Shown piece after piece: positions 34,240 through 38,401 of a stretch of 64,000 nucleotides of DNA. The position numbers were made by a program, and so were the translations under genes. Numbering within the stretch: position 1 is the first letter of the stretch; each line of letters opens with the position of its first letter. Under the pieces are notes generated by a model. It was given only the letters and a program-made list of their open reading frames with translations, did not search any database and was not told the origin of the DNA. The DNA comes from Nocardioides deserti (GTDB lineage: Bacteria > Actinomycetota > Actinomycetes > Propionibacteriales > Nocardioidaceae), in assembly GCF_014266025.1 (NCBI RefSeq), contig NZ_JACMYC010000003.1:372001-436000 (forward strand), in the 5' to 3' direction.

Positions 34240-35049
34240 ATGACGACGAGTGCTGTGCCCCTAGGACGCCGACCGAAGGACCTCCGTCGCAAGGCCGAGA
34301 CCGCCCGTCTGTTCGCGGAGGCGGCCGCCACCGACAACGAGATCGAGCGCGAGCGCCTCCACGAGGAGATCGTCCTCCTCAACATCGAGGTCGCCCGCAC
34401 CCTCGCGTCCCGGTTCCGCAACCGCGGCGTCCCGCTCGAGGACCTCGAGCAGGTCGCCCTCCTCACCCTCGTGCGGATCGTCCCGAAGTTCGACGCCAGC
34501 AAGGACCGCGACTTCCTCGCGTACGCCGTGCCGTCGATCCGCGGTGACCTCAAGCGCTACTTCCGCGACTTCGGCTGGATGGTCCGTCCGCCGCGCCGCG
34601 TCCAGGAGATCCAGTCCGAGGTCGTCGCCGCGCACCAGCGCGCCCGCGAGTCCGGCGAGCCGGCCTCGGCGGAGAAGATCGCCGAGCAGCTCGACCTGAA
34701 GCCCTCCGAGGTGCAGGCCGCGCTCATGGCCGACGGCTGCTTCCAGCCGCTCTCCCTCGACGTGCCGGTCTCGCCCGACCACGGCCGTGGCTCGCTGGGC
34801 GACACCCTCAGCGACGACGACCCGGGCGGTGAGCGCGCGGCCGAGGCGCGGGCGATGCTGACCCCGCTCATGCGCGAGCTCAGCGAGCGCGACCGCCGCA
34901 TCCTCCACCTGCGCTTCGCCGAGGACTGCACCCAGCAGGAGATCGCCGACCAGCTCGGCGTCACCCAGATGCAGGTCTCGCGCCTGCTCAGCCGGATCCT
35001 CGGCACGTTGCGCGAGGGCATCGGCGACCTGGAGCCCACCGGGGTCTGA
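34240..35049 (+). CDS. sigF: SigF/SigB-family RNA polymerase sigma factor
   Basis: The 269-residue stress-type group 3 sigma factor has region 2 (LASRFRNRGVPLEDLEQVALLTLVRIVPKFD...), SIRGDLKRYFRD, region 3 (VAAHQRARESGEPASAEKIAEQL) and region 4 with the helix-turn-helix CTQQEIADQLGVTQMQVSRLLSRIL. It is preceded by a SigF-like promoter and followed by a strong terminator. Usually an anti-sigma kinase gene (RsbW/UsfX) sits directly upstream; here it is absent, and only a STAS antagonist is convergent downstream. Confidence 0.92.
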   Translation: MTTSAVPLGRRPKDLRRKAETARLFAEAAATDNEIERERLHEEIVLLNIEVARTLASRFRNRGVPLEDLEQVALLTLVRIVPKFDASKDRDFLAYAVPSIRGDLKRYFRDFGWMVRPPRRVQEIQSEVVAAHQRARESGEPASAEKIAEQLDLKPSEVQAALMADGCFQPLSLDVPVSPDHGRGSLGDTLSDDDPGGERAAEARAMLTPLMRELSERDRRILHLRFAEDCTQQEIADQLGVTQMQVSRLLSRILGTLREGIGDLEPTGV

Positions 35050-35145: not shown

Positions 35146-35565
35146 CTAGGCCGACTCGAGCGTCATGGTCCGGAAGCGACCGGCGGTGCCGGTCAGCTCC
35201 ACCACCCGGGCGACCGCCGCGCTGAGGGCCGCCACGCTGAAGGTCCCGCCGGAGGCGGCCACCTCCTGCTGGCAGGCGAGCAGCGCGGAGAGTCCCGTGC
35301 AGTCGATGAAGGTCACTCCCTCGAGGTCGATCACGACGGACCTGCAGCCGTCCGCGGAGCGGCGCGCGACGGCACCTCGCAGGCCGGACACCGAGAGGAC
35401 GTCCAGCTCGCCCGTGACGACGACGTGCAGCTGAGGCGGATCAGCCACGGTGTTGAGTGAGAAGTACAAGTGACCGACAATCCGGGCCGAGAGGTCCTGG
35501 GAGGTGGCACCGGAAGCTCCGGGCACGTCTTCGACGCTACGCCGCGTCGGTGTCCACGTCACCAT
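35146..35565 (-). CDS. STAS-domain anti-sigma factor antagonist
   Basis: The STAS domain (LHVVVTGELDVLSVSGLRGA..., then VVIDLEGVTFIDCTGLSALL) fills the C-terminal 95 residues. In SpoIIAA/RsbV the regulatory phosphoserine is the second residue of D-S-S-G-L; here the segment is D-C-T-G-L, so a threonine takes the place. The ATG at 35565 gives 139 residues with a 35-residue N-terminal extension; a GTG at 35448 gives a typical 100-residue antagonist but also lacks a ribosome site. It is convergent with sigF and probably acts on that sigma factor's missing anti-sigma kinase. Confidence 0.78.
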   Translation of the reverse strand: MVTWTPTRRSVEDVPGASGATSQDLSARIVGHLYFSLNTVADPPQLHVVVTGELDVLSVSGLRGAVARRSADGCRSVVIDLEGVTFIDCTGLSALLACQQEVAASGGTFSVAALSAAVARVVELTGTAGRFRTMTLESA

Positions 35566-35831: not shown

Positions 35832-36299
35832 TCAGAGGCTGATCCGTCGGTTGCTACCCGCGTCGCACTCGATCGTGCTGCTCCAGGTCGTCGTCCATGT
35901 CCTGAACGAAGCCGTGACGGTGACGACGTAAGCCGTGCTCCCGACGTCGACGGGCTGACTGATCGACGTGCCACCGCGCTTCCCCGGCAGCTGCGCTGTG
36001 CTGGATCCGTCGGACGCCAAGGTCACCGCATAGGTGGTACCGGGCAGCTGCGCGCCGTCGGTGATGCCGTCGATGGACACGCTGGCGCCCTCGCGGAACA
36101 GGTTGAAGATGCTGTACTCGCACTTGAGGGAACCGGTGACGTCGGAGATGGGTGGCATCCGCGCCACCGTGACCGCCGTACCGCCGGGCTTCACCTGTCC
36201 GTTGAAGACCGCCTGGGCGACCTGCGGGACGGCCAGGAAGCACAGCACCGCGAGCGCGAGCGACACGGCTCGACGCCACGTGTCGGTGCTGCGGGACAT
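35832..36299 (-). CDS. Small exported protein, possible SipW-type substrate
   Basis: The 155-residue product starts at ATG 36299 with an Arg pair and a hydrophobic signal segment (RRAVSLALAVLCFLAVPQVAQA). The start of the mature part, VFNGQVKPGGTAVTV, recalls proteins processed by SipW-like signal peptidases. The rest is beta-strand-rich and Thr/Ser/Gly-rich with one cysteine near residue 78 and one near the end, which could pair. I do not recognise a family. A SipW-like signal peptidase gene is 1.2 kb away. Confidence 0.72.
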   Translation of the reverse strand: MSRSTDTWRRAVSLALAVLCFLAVPQVAQAVFNGQVKPGGTAVTVARMPPISDVTGSLKCEYSIFNLFREGASVSIDGITDGAQLPGTTYAVTLASDGSSTAQLPGKRGGTSISQPVDVGSTAYVVTVTASFRTWTTTWSSTIECDAGSNRRISL

Positions 36300-36430
36300 G
36301 GGTGCTCTCCTGTGCTGCGGGGGTGTCGTGCGGGGTGTTCTCGGGGTATGGACAGGAGTCTGCCGACACGGGTTCAAGGGGCCCGAGGCGGAACCTCAAG
36401 GAACATGCAAGGTCTGGCACACTCGGCGCC

Positions 36431-37168
36431 GTGGACGGATCGGGTTCGGGTCAGGAGCGCACGGCACTGGTCGTCGAGGACGACGAGGACATCCGCGCAC
36501 TCATCGAGTTCACGCTGCAGACCCAGGGCTTCGACGTCACGGCCGTCGACTCGGGCCTGGCCGGCGTCGAGGCGGTGCACTCCCTCGACCCCGACCTGAT
36601 CACCCTGGACCTCGGCCTGCCGGGCATCGACGGGATCGAGACCTGCCGGCGGATCCGCGAGACGAGCGACGCCTACATCGTCATGATCACCGCCCGTGAC
36701 GACGAGATCGACCGGCTGATCGGCCTCGAGACCGGCGCGGACGACTTCCTCTCCAAGCCGTTCAGCGTCCGTGAGCTCAAGGCCCGGGTCAACGCCCTGT
36801 TCCGGCGCCCGCGCCGCGGTCCGGCGCTGTCGGTGGTGCCGACCAGCTCCGGCGAGCCCGAGCACGAGGTGCTCGAGCACGGCCCGTTGAGGGTCGACGT
36901 CGACGGTCGGCGTGCATTCCGGGGCGAGGAGGAGCTCTCGCTCACCCGGACCGAGTTCGACCTGCTCACCGAGCTGATGCGCACGCCGGCGCGGGTCTGG
37001 ACCCGCGAGGCACTGCTCCGCTCGGTGTGGGGCACCGACTGGGCGACCGACACCCACCTGGTCGAGGTCCACGTCGGCAACCTGCGCCGCAAGCTCGGCG
37101 AGTCCCGCGAGGGACCCAAGTTCGTGCGGACCGTGCGGGGCGTCGGCTACCGCATGGAGTCGCTGTAG
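36431..37168 (+). CDS. OmpR/PhoB-family response regulator
   Basis: The 245-residue regulator has a receiver domain with acidic pocket VVEDDED (15-20), phosphoacceptor Asp60 (ITLDLGLPGIDG), Thr87 and Lys109, and a C-terminal winged helix (about 150-243) with RTEFDLLTELMRTPARVWTREALL and RTVRGVGYRME. The GTG at 36431 is chosen because the family begins just before TALVVEDD. No sensor kinase gene is adjacent; instead an Hpt-like gene without histidine converges 16 bp downstream. Confidence 0.9.
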   Translation: MDGSGSGQERTALVVEDDEDIRALIEFTLQTQGFDVTAVDSGLAGVEAVHSLDPDLITLDLGLPGIDGIETCRRIRETSDAYIVMITARDDEIDRLIGLETGADDFLSKPFSVRELKARVNALFRRPRRGPALSVVPTSSGEPEHEVLEHGPLRVDVDGRRAFRGEEELSLTRTEFDLLTELMRTPARVWTREALLRSVWGTDWATDTHLVEVHVGNLRRKLGESREGPKFVRTVRGVGYRMESL

Positions 37169-37184
37169 CCCCGGAGCGCCCGGC

Positions 37185-37550
37185 TCAGCCGGCCCGGTAC
37201 GCCGCGAGGTAGTCGGCCAGCGCCGTCTCGGCGCGGTCGGCGGCATCGGCGAGCGCGGCCGCCTGCTGGCGGGCGGCGACCACGTCGCGGCACCGCACGT
37301 GCTGCTCGACGGCGAGCGCCAGGTGGGCCAGCTCGTGGGTCCCGACGGTGCTCGAGGAGACCTTGAGGCTGAGCACCGAGTCCATCGCGGCGACCAGGTC
37401 GCCGTCGAGGAGCGCGTCGAGGATTCGACGCACCCGGCTCTCGAGCATCGAGCAGTAGCGCCGGGCGAAGGAGATCGCGAACTCGCAGTCCTGGATGTCC
37501 GAGCCGAGGCGCGTGAGCGCCTCGCGGTCGAGGACGAGGGTGGCGCTCAT
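37185..37550 (-). CDS. Hpt-like helical protein lacking the phosphohistidine
   Basis: The 121-residue all-helical product aligns with Hpt phosphotransfer domains: a FARRYCSMLESRVRRILDALLDGDLVAAMDSV helix pair then VLSLKVSSSTVGTHELAHLA (59-78). The typical Hpt motif is xHxLKGSSxxxGA; the LK, SS and G positions are kept, but Leu60 stands at the histidine position. It overlaps the signal peptidase gene by 4 bp and converges with the response regulator gene. It may bind a receiver domain without phosphotransfer. Confidence 0.7.
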   Translation of the reverse strand: MSATLVLDREALTRLGSDIQDCEFAISFARRYCSMLESRVRRILDALLDGDLVAAMDSVLSLKVSSSTVGTHELAHLALAVEQHVRCRDVVAARQQAAALADAADRAETALADYLAAYRAG

Positions 37551-38275
37551 GCCTGCTCCGCCGCGGTCTCGTCGTCCTCGTCGGTGTCCTCGTCCTCGTC
37601 GGTGTCCTCGTCCTCGTCGGAGGACCAGATCAGGGACATGCCGAGCAGGATGGCGCCGCCGAGCGCGACCCAGAGGACCCCGTCCTGCACGATCGGCGAG
37701 CGGAGCGTGCGGATGACGGTGCCGAGGCTCGGGACGACGGCCTGCATCTCCCAGACGGTGTCGCCCTCGAGGGTGGCGACCCACGGGTCGACGTTCTCGT
37801 TGTTGTCGCCCTTGGTCCGGATGGCGATGGTGCCGTCCTCGTTGTCGATGACCTCGACGACGCGGTGGGTCTCGACGCGGTGGTCCTCGACGGGGATGTG
37901 GTAGCTGATGACGTCACTGACGGCGACCTCGGAGGCCGGCTCGGGGGTGGTCACGACGACGTCGCCGGGCATGATGCCGGGCTCCATGCTGCCGGTGAGC
38001 ATGGTGGAGGTGCGGTAACCCAGCAGGTGCGGGCCGACCGCGAGGAAGCAGAACGCCAGCGCGCCTACGAGCAGCACCACGGTGGTGACCATGCTGATCA
38101 GCCGGCGGGCCCAGCGACGGCCGGAGCGCTCGCCATGGGGCTGCTCCTGCGGCGCCTGCGGATCGGACGCCTCGGCGGCGAGCTGCACGAGGACCGGCCG
38201 ACGGGCGATGACGCGCTGCGGCTGCTCGGCGCGGTGGCGACCGACGGTGACGGCCTGCGGTGCGACGGTGCTCAC
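37547..38275 (-). CDS. SipW/ER-type signal peptidase I
   Basis: The 242-residue protein has an N-terminal cytosolic part, a membrane segment (60-80), the nucleophile Ser96 in MLTGSMEPGIMPGD, the His137 in THRVVEV, and TKGDNNE, which is the archaeal/ER/SipW pattern with His instead of the usual bacterial Lys. A second membrane segment lies near residue 205. The GTG at 38275 follows GAGGAG with 7-base spacing and is preferred over an upstream ATG at 38350. The C-terminal tail is a run of Asp/Glu/Thr repeats encoded by an 18-bp tandem repeat. Confidence 0.9.
   Translation of the reverse strand: MSTVAPQAVTVGRHRAEQPQRVIARRPVLVQLAAEASDPQAPQEQPHGERSGRRWARRLISMVTTVVLLVGALAFCFLAVGPHLLGYRTSTMLTGSMEPGIMPGDVVVTTPEPASEVAVSDVISYHIPVEDHRVETHRVVEVIDNEDGTIAIRTKGDNNENVDPWVATLEGDTVWEMQAVVPSLGTVIRTLRSPIVQDGVLWVALGGAILLGMSLIWSSDEDEDTDEDEDTDEDDETAAEQA
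37574..37620. repeat. 18-bp tandem repeat in the signal peptidase gene
   Basis: The unit GTCCTCGTCGGTGTCCTC occurs 2.6 times without a mismatch (37574-37591, 37592-37609, partial to 37620). On the minus strand it encodes Glu-Asp-Thr-Asp-Glu-Asp, so copy changes keep the frame and alter the length of the acidic tail. Confidence 0.9.
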
Positions 38276-38401
38276 GACCGAACTCCTCGGGACTGGTGGG
38301 GCCGGACTGGTGGAGTCCTGATGACGAGAACTCTGCCGCTCGCAGATCAAGGGCCCCGCTGGTGCAACCCCGAGATCTCCTCAAGGCCTGCTCAACCCCG
38401 C

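Follow-up and report, generated by a model that had tools for sequence, protein, structure and literature searches.

The stretch of DNA considered here, 64,000 nucleotides of the actinobacterium Nocardioides deserti (contig NZ_JACMYC010000003.1, positions 372,001 to 436,000; the window from now on), carries a module of four genes packed into 2.4 kb. These encode a small exported protein (EXP), an OmpR/PhoB-type response regulator (RR), a pseudo-histidine-phosphotransfer protein (pHpt), related to the histidine phosphotransfer (Hpt) proteins, and a signal peptidase of the SipW or endoplasmic reticulum (ER) type (Table 1). A first, sequence-only reading had placed the four genes at these positions and proposed that they form one regulated system releasing a surface or matrix protein. 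All four are present, and their coding status is backed by the guanine-cytosine content at the codon positions, which at third positions (GC3) reaches 0.98 in pHpt. The clustering goes beyond chance, as the same set of genes appears elsewhere: the module is found again in Nocardioides and Arthrobacter relatives, and both the set and much of the gene order, whose lack of conservation had been named as a sign against the proposal, reappear in two families, Nocardioidaceae (the family of the window) and Micrococcaceae.

Table 1. Features of the module and adjoining genes in the window
Feature	Position	Strand	Remarks
SigB/F-like sigma factor gene	34240-35049	+	adjoins the module in the window and in L025
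STAS anti-sigma-antagonist gene	~35146-35565	-	adjoins the module in the window and in L025
EXP, small exported protein	35832-36299	-	155 aa; one N-terminal hydrophobic segment; AQA-VF in signal sequence
EXP promoter core CTTGA-N9-GNCAGANT	36357-36378	-	pattern match
Phased 11-bp direct repeat CTTG-N7-CTTG, EXP-RR intergenic, upstream of EXP	36397-36411	-	in 15/15 Nocardioidaceae EXP (discovery set)
RR, OmpR/PhoB-type response regulator	36431-37168	+	Pfam receiver and Trans_reg_C; intact phospho-Asp, acidic pair and Lys
pHpt, pseudo-histidine-phosphotransfer protein	37185-37550	-	121 aa; Leu60 at the phospho-His position
SipW, ER-type signal peptidase	37547-38275	-	TIGR02228; Ser96/His137; two hydrophobic segments; 4-nt overlap with pHpt
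SipW-pHpt operon promoter core, signature common to EXP and two TasA-like genes	38330-38351	-	pattern match
GTTG-N7-CTTG, imperfect 11-bp repeat preceding the SipW promoter core	38382-38396	-	present in L113, not in L025

The peptidase scores 59.9 bits against TIGR02228 (cut-off 51.85), the SipW/archaeal-type profile, and the Ser96 and His137 of its Ser-His dyad are invariant in 8/8 sequences. The profile of the Bacillus SipW equivalog, NF046067, gives 66.9 bits for a cut-off of 190. Judged by its sequence, the enzyme is therefore of the same type as Bacillus SipW and not the Bacillus equivalog. It is the sole TIGR02228 match above the cut-off in its own genome, and SipW/ER-type peptidases exceeding this cut-off are present in 94 of the 149 genomes of its family. 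The subtype found in the window (P0004-type SipW; E < 1e-50, the next match being at 4e-30) occurs at eight loci in seven of these 149 genomes, and all eight are clustered with pHpt, six of them adjacent or fused to it, one with a single gene between (L038) and one with two (L035).

The SipW gene overlaps the start of pHpt over 4 nt in the window, and at nine loci one open frame joins both, two of them in Nocardioidaceae (L028, L040) and seven in Micrococcaceae (L135, L139, L143, L166, L170, L173, L175), which bears out the earlier claim that a SipW/ER-type peptidase is coupled to a pseudo-Hpt. Two hydrophobic segments are computed in the window SipW and in both Nocardioidaceae fusions; in the fusions pHpt follows the second of them and, given the topology that we assume for SipW, is therefore presumably cytosolic. 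A tree was built from 26 SipW rows, after rows at or below 150 bits had been excluded and, of the remaining 29, three in which the anchor motif was not found had been dropped; it needs five changes between the fused and the separate label, at least three of them forced by well-supported branches. Because the tree demands several such changes, the fusion state changed more than once. Nearest to the window stand the rows of Nocardioides sp. IC4_145 and N. abyssi, with RRs of 97% identity. Read as Rosetta stones, the fusions argue that SipW and pHpt work together.

The pseudo-Hpt label given to the second partner was also right. The Pfam Hpt match of the window pHpt falls slightly below the cut-off (22.9 versus 24.6 bits), 16 of 18 family members match Pfam Hpt at E ≤ 1, and the AlphaFold model built from an 18-row alignment (pLDDT 95.5) has five helices, with Hpt domains as the closest solved structures (3myf, Z 16.5; 7c1i, Z 16.4 and TM 0.81), so that the predicted fold is the Hpt helical bundle. 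This fold is the same as that of HptB of Pseudomonas aeruginosa (7c1i), but pHpt lacks the phosphorylatable His of Hpt proteins: a profile alignment puts a Leu opposite the phospho-His of HptB. The Leu is found in 99/99 rows, a figure biased by the fact that 78 of the 96 loci came from a pattern requiring LSLK, and in 18/18 strong family loci found without that pattern. The 21 next-best, weaker Hpt matches that cover the site, some of them near copies, all keep the His. A Lys at H+3 is shared with HptB (95/99 pHpt rows), whereas H+4, a Gly in HptB, is mostly Thr, Val or Ile (89/99). Having no phosphate-carrying residue, pHpt therefore probably binds only, with no transfer of phosphate.

The loss of the phospho-His could also mean that pHpt is a functionless, decaying remnant of a hybrid kinase. 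We rejected this possibility as extremely improbable, since LSLK and its surroundings are strongly conserved across two families, the GC3 is that of a coding gene, 8 of 28 Nocardioidaceae pHpt genes have a promoter box of their own (see below), and genome G156 holds four copies, with L, L, V and I at the former His. pHpt is a bacterial pseudo-Hpt family under evident selection. Several copies per genome were seen in G156 (L211, L227, L228, L229) and in Arthrobacter terricola (L121, L139, L159), and such multi-copy genomes represent a family expansion of the dead Hpt.

The counts on distribution come from genome searches in which only the best first-look candidates were scored (11-30 per genome; 11 per genome in a sample of 396 genomes), and misses are possible for this reason; one search overlooked the RR in G111 and G146, although another recovered it. 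A single-sequence pHpt scan of named genomes gave no matches and the 18-row alignment was too diverse for searching, while a six-row alignment yielded 83 relatives, of which the best 80 were used. Once duplicates had been removed (L097, equal to L029, and L111, equal to L036), and with two of 19 regions set aside (L042, where the match falls within an opposite-strand gene, and L043, a genuine Hpt carrying AHTLK), 96 non-duplicate pHpt loci were counted. The family is present in 17 of the 149 genomes of the window's family (18 loci, E < 1e-30). Among 396 genomes of the phylum, only two, that of the window and G156, have matches at E < 1e-15, and the scan of named genomes found pHpt in Nocardioides, Arthrobacter, Paenarthrobacter and Pseudarthrobacter.

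At all 18 pHpt loci of the window's family (the window and L025-L041), an RR gene lies on the opposite strand, at most 1.4 kb away from centre to centre; it is directly next to pHpt in 15 and separated by one gene in L035, L038 and L039. Over the 96 loci, an RR is found within 2.5 kb in 49 and a SipW within 4 kb in 32. EXP follows the peptidase closely, being present at 27 of the 32 pHpt loci with SipW and at none of the 64 without it (Fisher 4e-19, uncorrected for kinship; some loci are cut by contig ends, and the EXP of L132 and L145 reach no more than 20 and 17 bits). The SipW loci without EXP are L028, L121, L130, L138 and L139, the SipW match being weak in L130 and L138. Eight Micrococcaceae loci (L126, L143, L159, L161, L166, L170, L173, L175) carry, on one strand, a TasA-like gene, SipW, pHpt and EXP in this order. 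Orthologues of the RR (E < 1e-75) without pHpt were found in four genomes (G005, G007, G044, G079). At each of three loci from Paenarthrobacter/Arthrobacter (L126, L153, L162), 16 kb encompass a pair of RR genes and a pair of related histidine kinases together with pHpt and a SipW-type gene, as if the system had been partially duplicated.

These neighbourhoods bear on the idea that pHpt serves SipW as an adaptor or as a stabilising subunit and makes no contact with the RR, the latter being merely the transcription factor of the module. The overlap and fusion of the SipW and pHpt genes would fit it, as would the lack of an RR within 2.5 kb at 11 of 12 Micrococcaceae loci with SipW and EXP. We consider it unlikely, given that Hpt folds bind receivers and that at 32 loci pHpt is accompanied by an RR within 2.5 kb in the absence of SipW. 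In addition, 15 of the 18 Micrococcaceae loci among these 32 hold a full-length relative of the L114/L118 histidine kinases, two of which were scanned and display PAS, HisKA and HATPase domains. In the window's own genome, three kinases show similarity over the catalytic part. One of them, on contig C6, ranks third by score and has no related RR beside it; it alone matches in the N-terminal part as well, and it is a relative of the kinases linked to pHpt in Arthrobacter.

The RR matches PF00072 and PF00486 and combines an intact phosphorylation site with a winged helix, as expected of an OmpR/PhoB protein. All 44 RRs drawn from pHpt loci keep the phospho-Asp, the acidic residues and the Lys, and their recognition helix is for the most part conserved. 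OmpR/PhoB proteins are suited to helically phased direct repeats, and the RR is the presumed binder of the CTTG boxes described below.

The sequence-only reading had also considered the mature start of EXP to fit SipW substrates and had proposed a search for further ones; both points were borne out. A cut after the AQA of EXP would place a Phe at P2', and AxA-x-F occurs in the signal sequences of 26 of 27 EXP relatives, L106 being the exception. In a crude control, an aromatic P2' was found in only 1 of 47 other AxA-bearing exported candidates of the same loci; the same crude filter gave 10/12 aromatic for EXP and 0/2 for TasA-like proteins, the cleavage site of the two TasA-like rows not being of the AxA type. 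The window EXP has no Pfam or NCBIfam match at E ≤ 1, and no relevant NCBIfam match was obtained for seven members. Its mature part is modelled as a beta sandwich with moderate confidence (pLDDT 79.8), and the fold matches are generic (C2-like and other rows at Z 7.7-9.1, and FnIII-like rows). Likeness to TapA was considered as well and is unsupported by the fold searches; neither TapA nor TasA is among the matches listed, which excludes nothing. From its sequence, EXP is probably a new family of surface proteins.

Further candidate substrates are the TasA/camelysin-family proteins, whose genes adjoin SipW in relatives of the module. Seven of eight such TasA-like relatives match PF12389 (Peptidase_M73) at E ≤ 0.1 (34.3 for the first, cut-off 22.5), and five of eight match TIGR04088, the SipW-dependent signal peptide, at E ≤ 1 (best E 0.0015; 15.3 for the first member, below the cut-off of 19). 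With an alignment of these eight relatives, two TasA-like genes were found in the window's genome, on contigs C12 and C8 (E 3.5e-72 and 4.4e-71), both unlinked to the module. Three to four TasA-like genes, several with their own box, surround SipW-pHpt in L035, L038 and L104, and two of them are nearly identical within L035 and within L038.

It could be argued that EXP is processed by ordinary signal peptidase I and that its P2' Phe is incidental. AxA is an ordinary site for signal peptidase I, and the P2' rule was measured in Escherichia coli, not in actinobacteria. Nevertheless, the frequency of P2' Phe in EXP compared with the other candidates, and the absence of EXP from pHpt loci without SipW, make this explanation improbable. 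In the passages of PMC10269814 that deal with the matter, E. coli signal peptidase I is reported to cleave poorly when P2' is aromatic, an aromatic P2' is absent from all 143 verified substrates, and TasA of Bacillus subtilis, whose P2' is Phe as in EXP, is cut by SipW.

The regulation suggested by the sequence-only reading is supported by a promoter signature common to SipW-pHpt, EXP and both TasA-like genes. In the 15 Nocardioidaceae loci that served for its discovery, EXP is preceded by a box, the direct repeat CTTG-N7-CTTG, with a third CTTG 18 bases on in 13 of them (not in L041 and L122). Within 250 bases upstream, the box is found in Nocardioidaceae for 13/20 TasA-like genes, 8/28 pHpt genes, 1/14 separate SipW genes (many of them second in an operon), neither of the two fused SipW-pHpt genes and 0/355 other genes; the figures for Micrococcaceae are 7/12 for TasA-like genes, 3/12 for EXP, 0/10 for SipW and 2/697 for others. 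Both TasA-like genes of the window's genome have it, at -130 and -131, and the SipW operon promoter combines an imperfect copy with a longer core common to the TasA-like promoters. The pattern CTTGA-N9-GNCAGANT has only four exact matches in the 4.2-Mb genome, namely EXP, SipW-pHpt, TasA-like 1 and TasA-like 2, two of which fall in the window versus 0.01 expected. With these four matches only, the enzyme and its probable substrates appear, as far as promoter sequences go, to form one closed regulon. CTTG-N7-CTTG alone occurs once in the 64-kb window (0.22 expected, not significant), and the weight of this repeat rests on its position and conservation. An alternative pattern, CTTGMNNNNWYCTTG, was too narrow genome-wide: it matched 2 times, its reversed control 3 times, and both TasA-like promoters escaped it. 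One and the same one-mismatch match, CTTGATCTCGTGGCCGCAGAGT, appears three times in the genome (L244, L247 and L251, on contigs C4, C15 and C39) and is therefore probably part of a repeated element. Ten pHpt loci, mostly from Paenarthrobacter (L110, L114, L115, L120, L125, L127, L129, L134, L141, L142), display a nearly invariant triple CTTG array just upstream of pHpt, on the opposite strand.

Other peptidases of the same type in the family do not share this arrangement. None of 30 other TIGR02228 loci is at a pHpt locus, and in their 102 kb a single box was found (1.7 expected), at L051 of genome G047, which holds pHpt. Boxes not being enriched there, the wiring of box and pHpt is particular to the pHpt-linked SipW subtype. 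Of the four RR loci without pHpt, two were examined, and neither has a box. The boxes might also be bound by another regulator, such as the SigB/F-like sigma factor, with the RR as a mere neighbour. The sigma and STAS genes beside the module in the window and in L025 would favour this; in contrast, the sigma gene flanks the module at just 2 of 18 loci, boxes are also found ahead of pHpt where an RR-pHpt locus has no SipW, and 11-bp phased repeats are unlike a sigma site, all of which renders such a regulator a rather poor candidate.

At 8 of the 14 Nocardioidaceae RR-pHpt loci without SipW, pHpt stands behind its own box, an arrangement that, on the sequence evidence, looks like feedback; the link of pHpt to SipW suggests, in turn, that this feedback is tied to the peptidase. 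The same eight loci would equally suit a soluble pHpt that competitively inhibits the RR, its link to SipW amounting to co-expression with no physical or functional coupling, and so would the 32 pHpt loci with an RR within 2.5 kb and no SipW. A precedent exists in the plant protein AHP6, which, in the passages of PMC3572949 devoted to it, is likewise an Hpt protein without the phospho-His and inhibits a phosphorelay. pHpt differs from AHP6 in being bacterial, in lying beside a single OmpR-type RR and in being coupled or fused to a membrane peptidase, and its inhibitory action would be presumed by analogy. The soluble inhibitor is a sensible but somewhat doubtful explanation, in view of the single open frame that joins SipW and pHpt at nine loci and of the confinement of P0004-type SipW to pHpt clusters (8/8).

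The observations can be integrated in a model, to which we assign a probability of about 0.55, in which the RR drives a dedicated export regulon and the SipW-linked pHpt docks on it at the membrane as feedback inhibition. One switch, most likely the RR, would bind the boxes and turn on four promoters, those of SipW-pHpt, EXP, TasA-like 1 and TasA-like 2. SipW would remove the signal peptides of EXP and of the two unlinked TasA/camelysin-like proteins, which probably build a surface or matrix structure. pHpt, made with SipW or fused to its cytosolic end, would most likely dock on the receiver of the RR at the membrane and limit its activation, a negative feedback whose inhibitory direction is our assumption and which would couple the amount or activity of the peptidase to the expression of its substrates. 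The sequences lend support to the genes, the dead Hpt, the fusions, the co-occurrence and the common promoter signature as elements of this model. The SipW-pHpt fusions, the regulon and the unlinked TasA-like genes go beyond what the sequence-only reading had noticed.

Several observations weigh against this model. Neither SipW nor an RR is nearby at 32 of the 96 pHpt loci, so pHpt must have other uses too, and an RR is within 2.5 kb at only 1 of the 12 Micrococcaceae loci with SipW and EXP. The Nocardioidaceae modules have no histidine kinase next to them, and the C6 kinase homologue (L232 3700-5037) is split over two frames, owing to an assembly error or to an inactive gene. On their own strand, RR genes have no upstream box (0/29 in Nocardioidaceae, 0/30 in Micrococcaceae). 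The box precedes just 3 of 12 EXP genes in Micrococcaceae. On the pHpt strand, it precedes only 1/62 separate and 0/6 fused pHpt genes of this family, so the feedback on pHpt is supported only in Nocardioidaceae. As regards the signature, CTTGA-N9-GNCAGANT was drawn from the same four promoters that it matches, and therefore only its absence elsewhere is an independent result. With one mismatch allowed there is no excess (12 matches, eight of them inexact, versus 17 for the reversed control), and the upstream regions of the two TasA-like genes are near copies of each other, so these two promoters are not independent. Finally, the EXP of Micrococcaceae are weak HMM matches (17-51 bits), and 1 of the 27 EXP, that of L106, is without the P2' Phe.

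The closest known system is the tapA-sipW-tasA matrix operon of B. subtilis, which resembles the module in associating a SipW-type peptidase with TasA/camelysin-family substrates, here candidates. It differs in that the TasA-like genes are unlinked here and share a promoter signature with SipW-pHpt, that EXP matches no Pfam or NCBIfam family, and that the passages on the operon in the sources consulted name no Hpt-like partner. An additional function of SipW in the regulation of matrix genes is mentioned in a passage of PMC9486643, citing Terra 2012. In the open-licence literature, including that on SipW in Arthrobacter and Nocardioides, we found no description of an Hpt-linked signal peptidase. 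The parts are of known kinds, and their wiring is new to us. From a search that was not exhaustive, we know of no established mechanism for the regulation of matrix genes by Bacillus SipW.

In a more tentative extension, which we hold to be possible though less likely than the model itself, SipW-pHpt would act as a sensor of secretion load, a SipW busy with precursors causing its cytosolic pHpt to release (or hold) the RR. To our knowledge, this would be the first two-component circuit with a working signal peptidase as its input. If true, the cell would adjust its production of TasA-like and EXP subunits to the amount that it is able to process, and there would be a molecular answer to how a SipW regulates matrix genes. 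In the environmental genera that carry the module, evolution has joined SipW to a domain of the receiver-binding type and has given peptidase and probable substrates a common promoter signature, which suggests an undescribed bacterial route tying the secretion of surface proteins to gene control and provides a concrete, testable link between protein export and two-component control.

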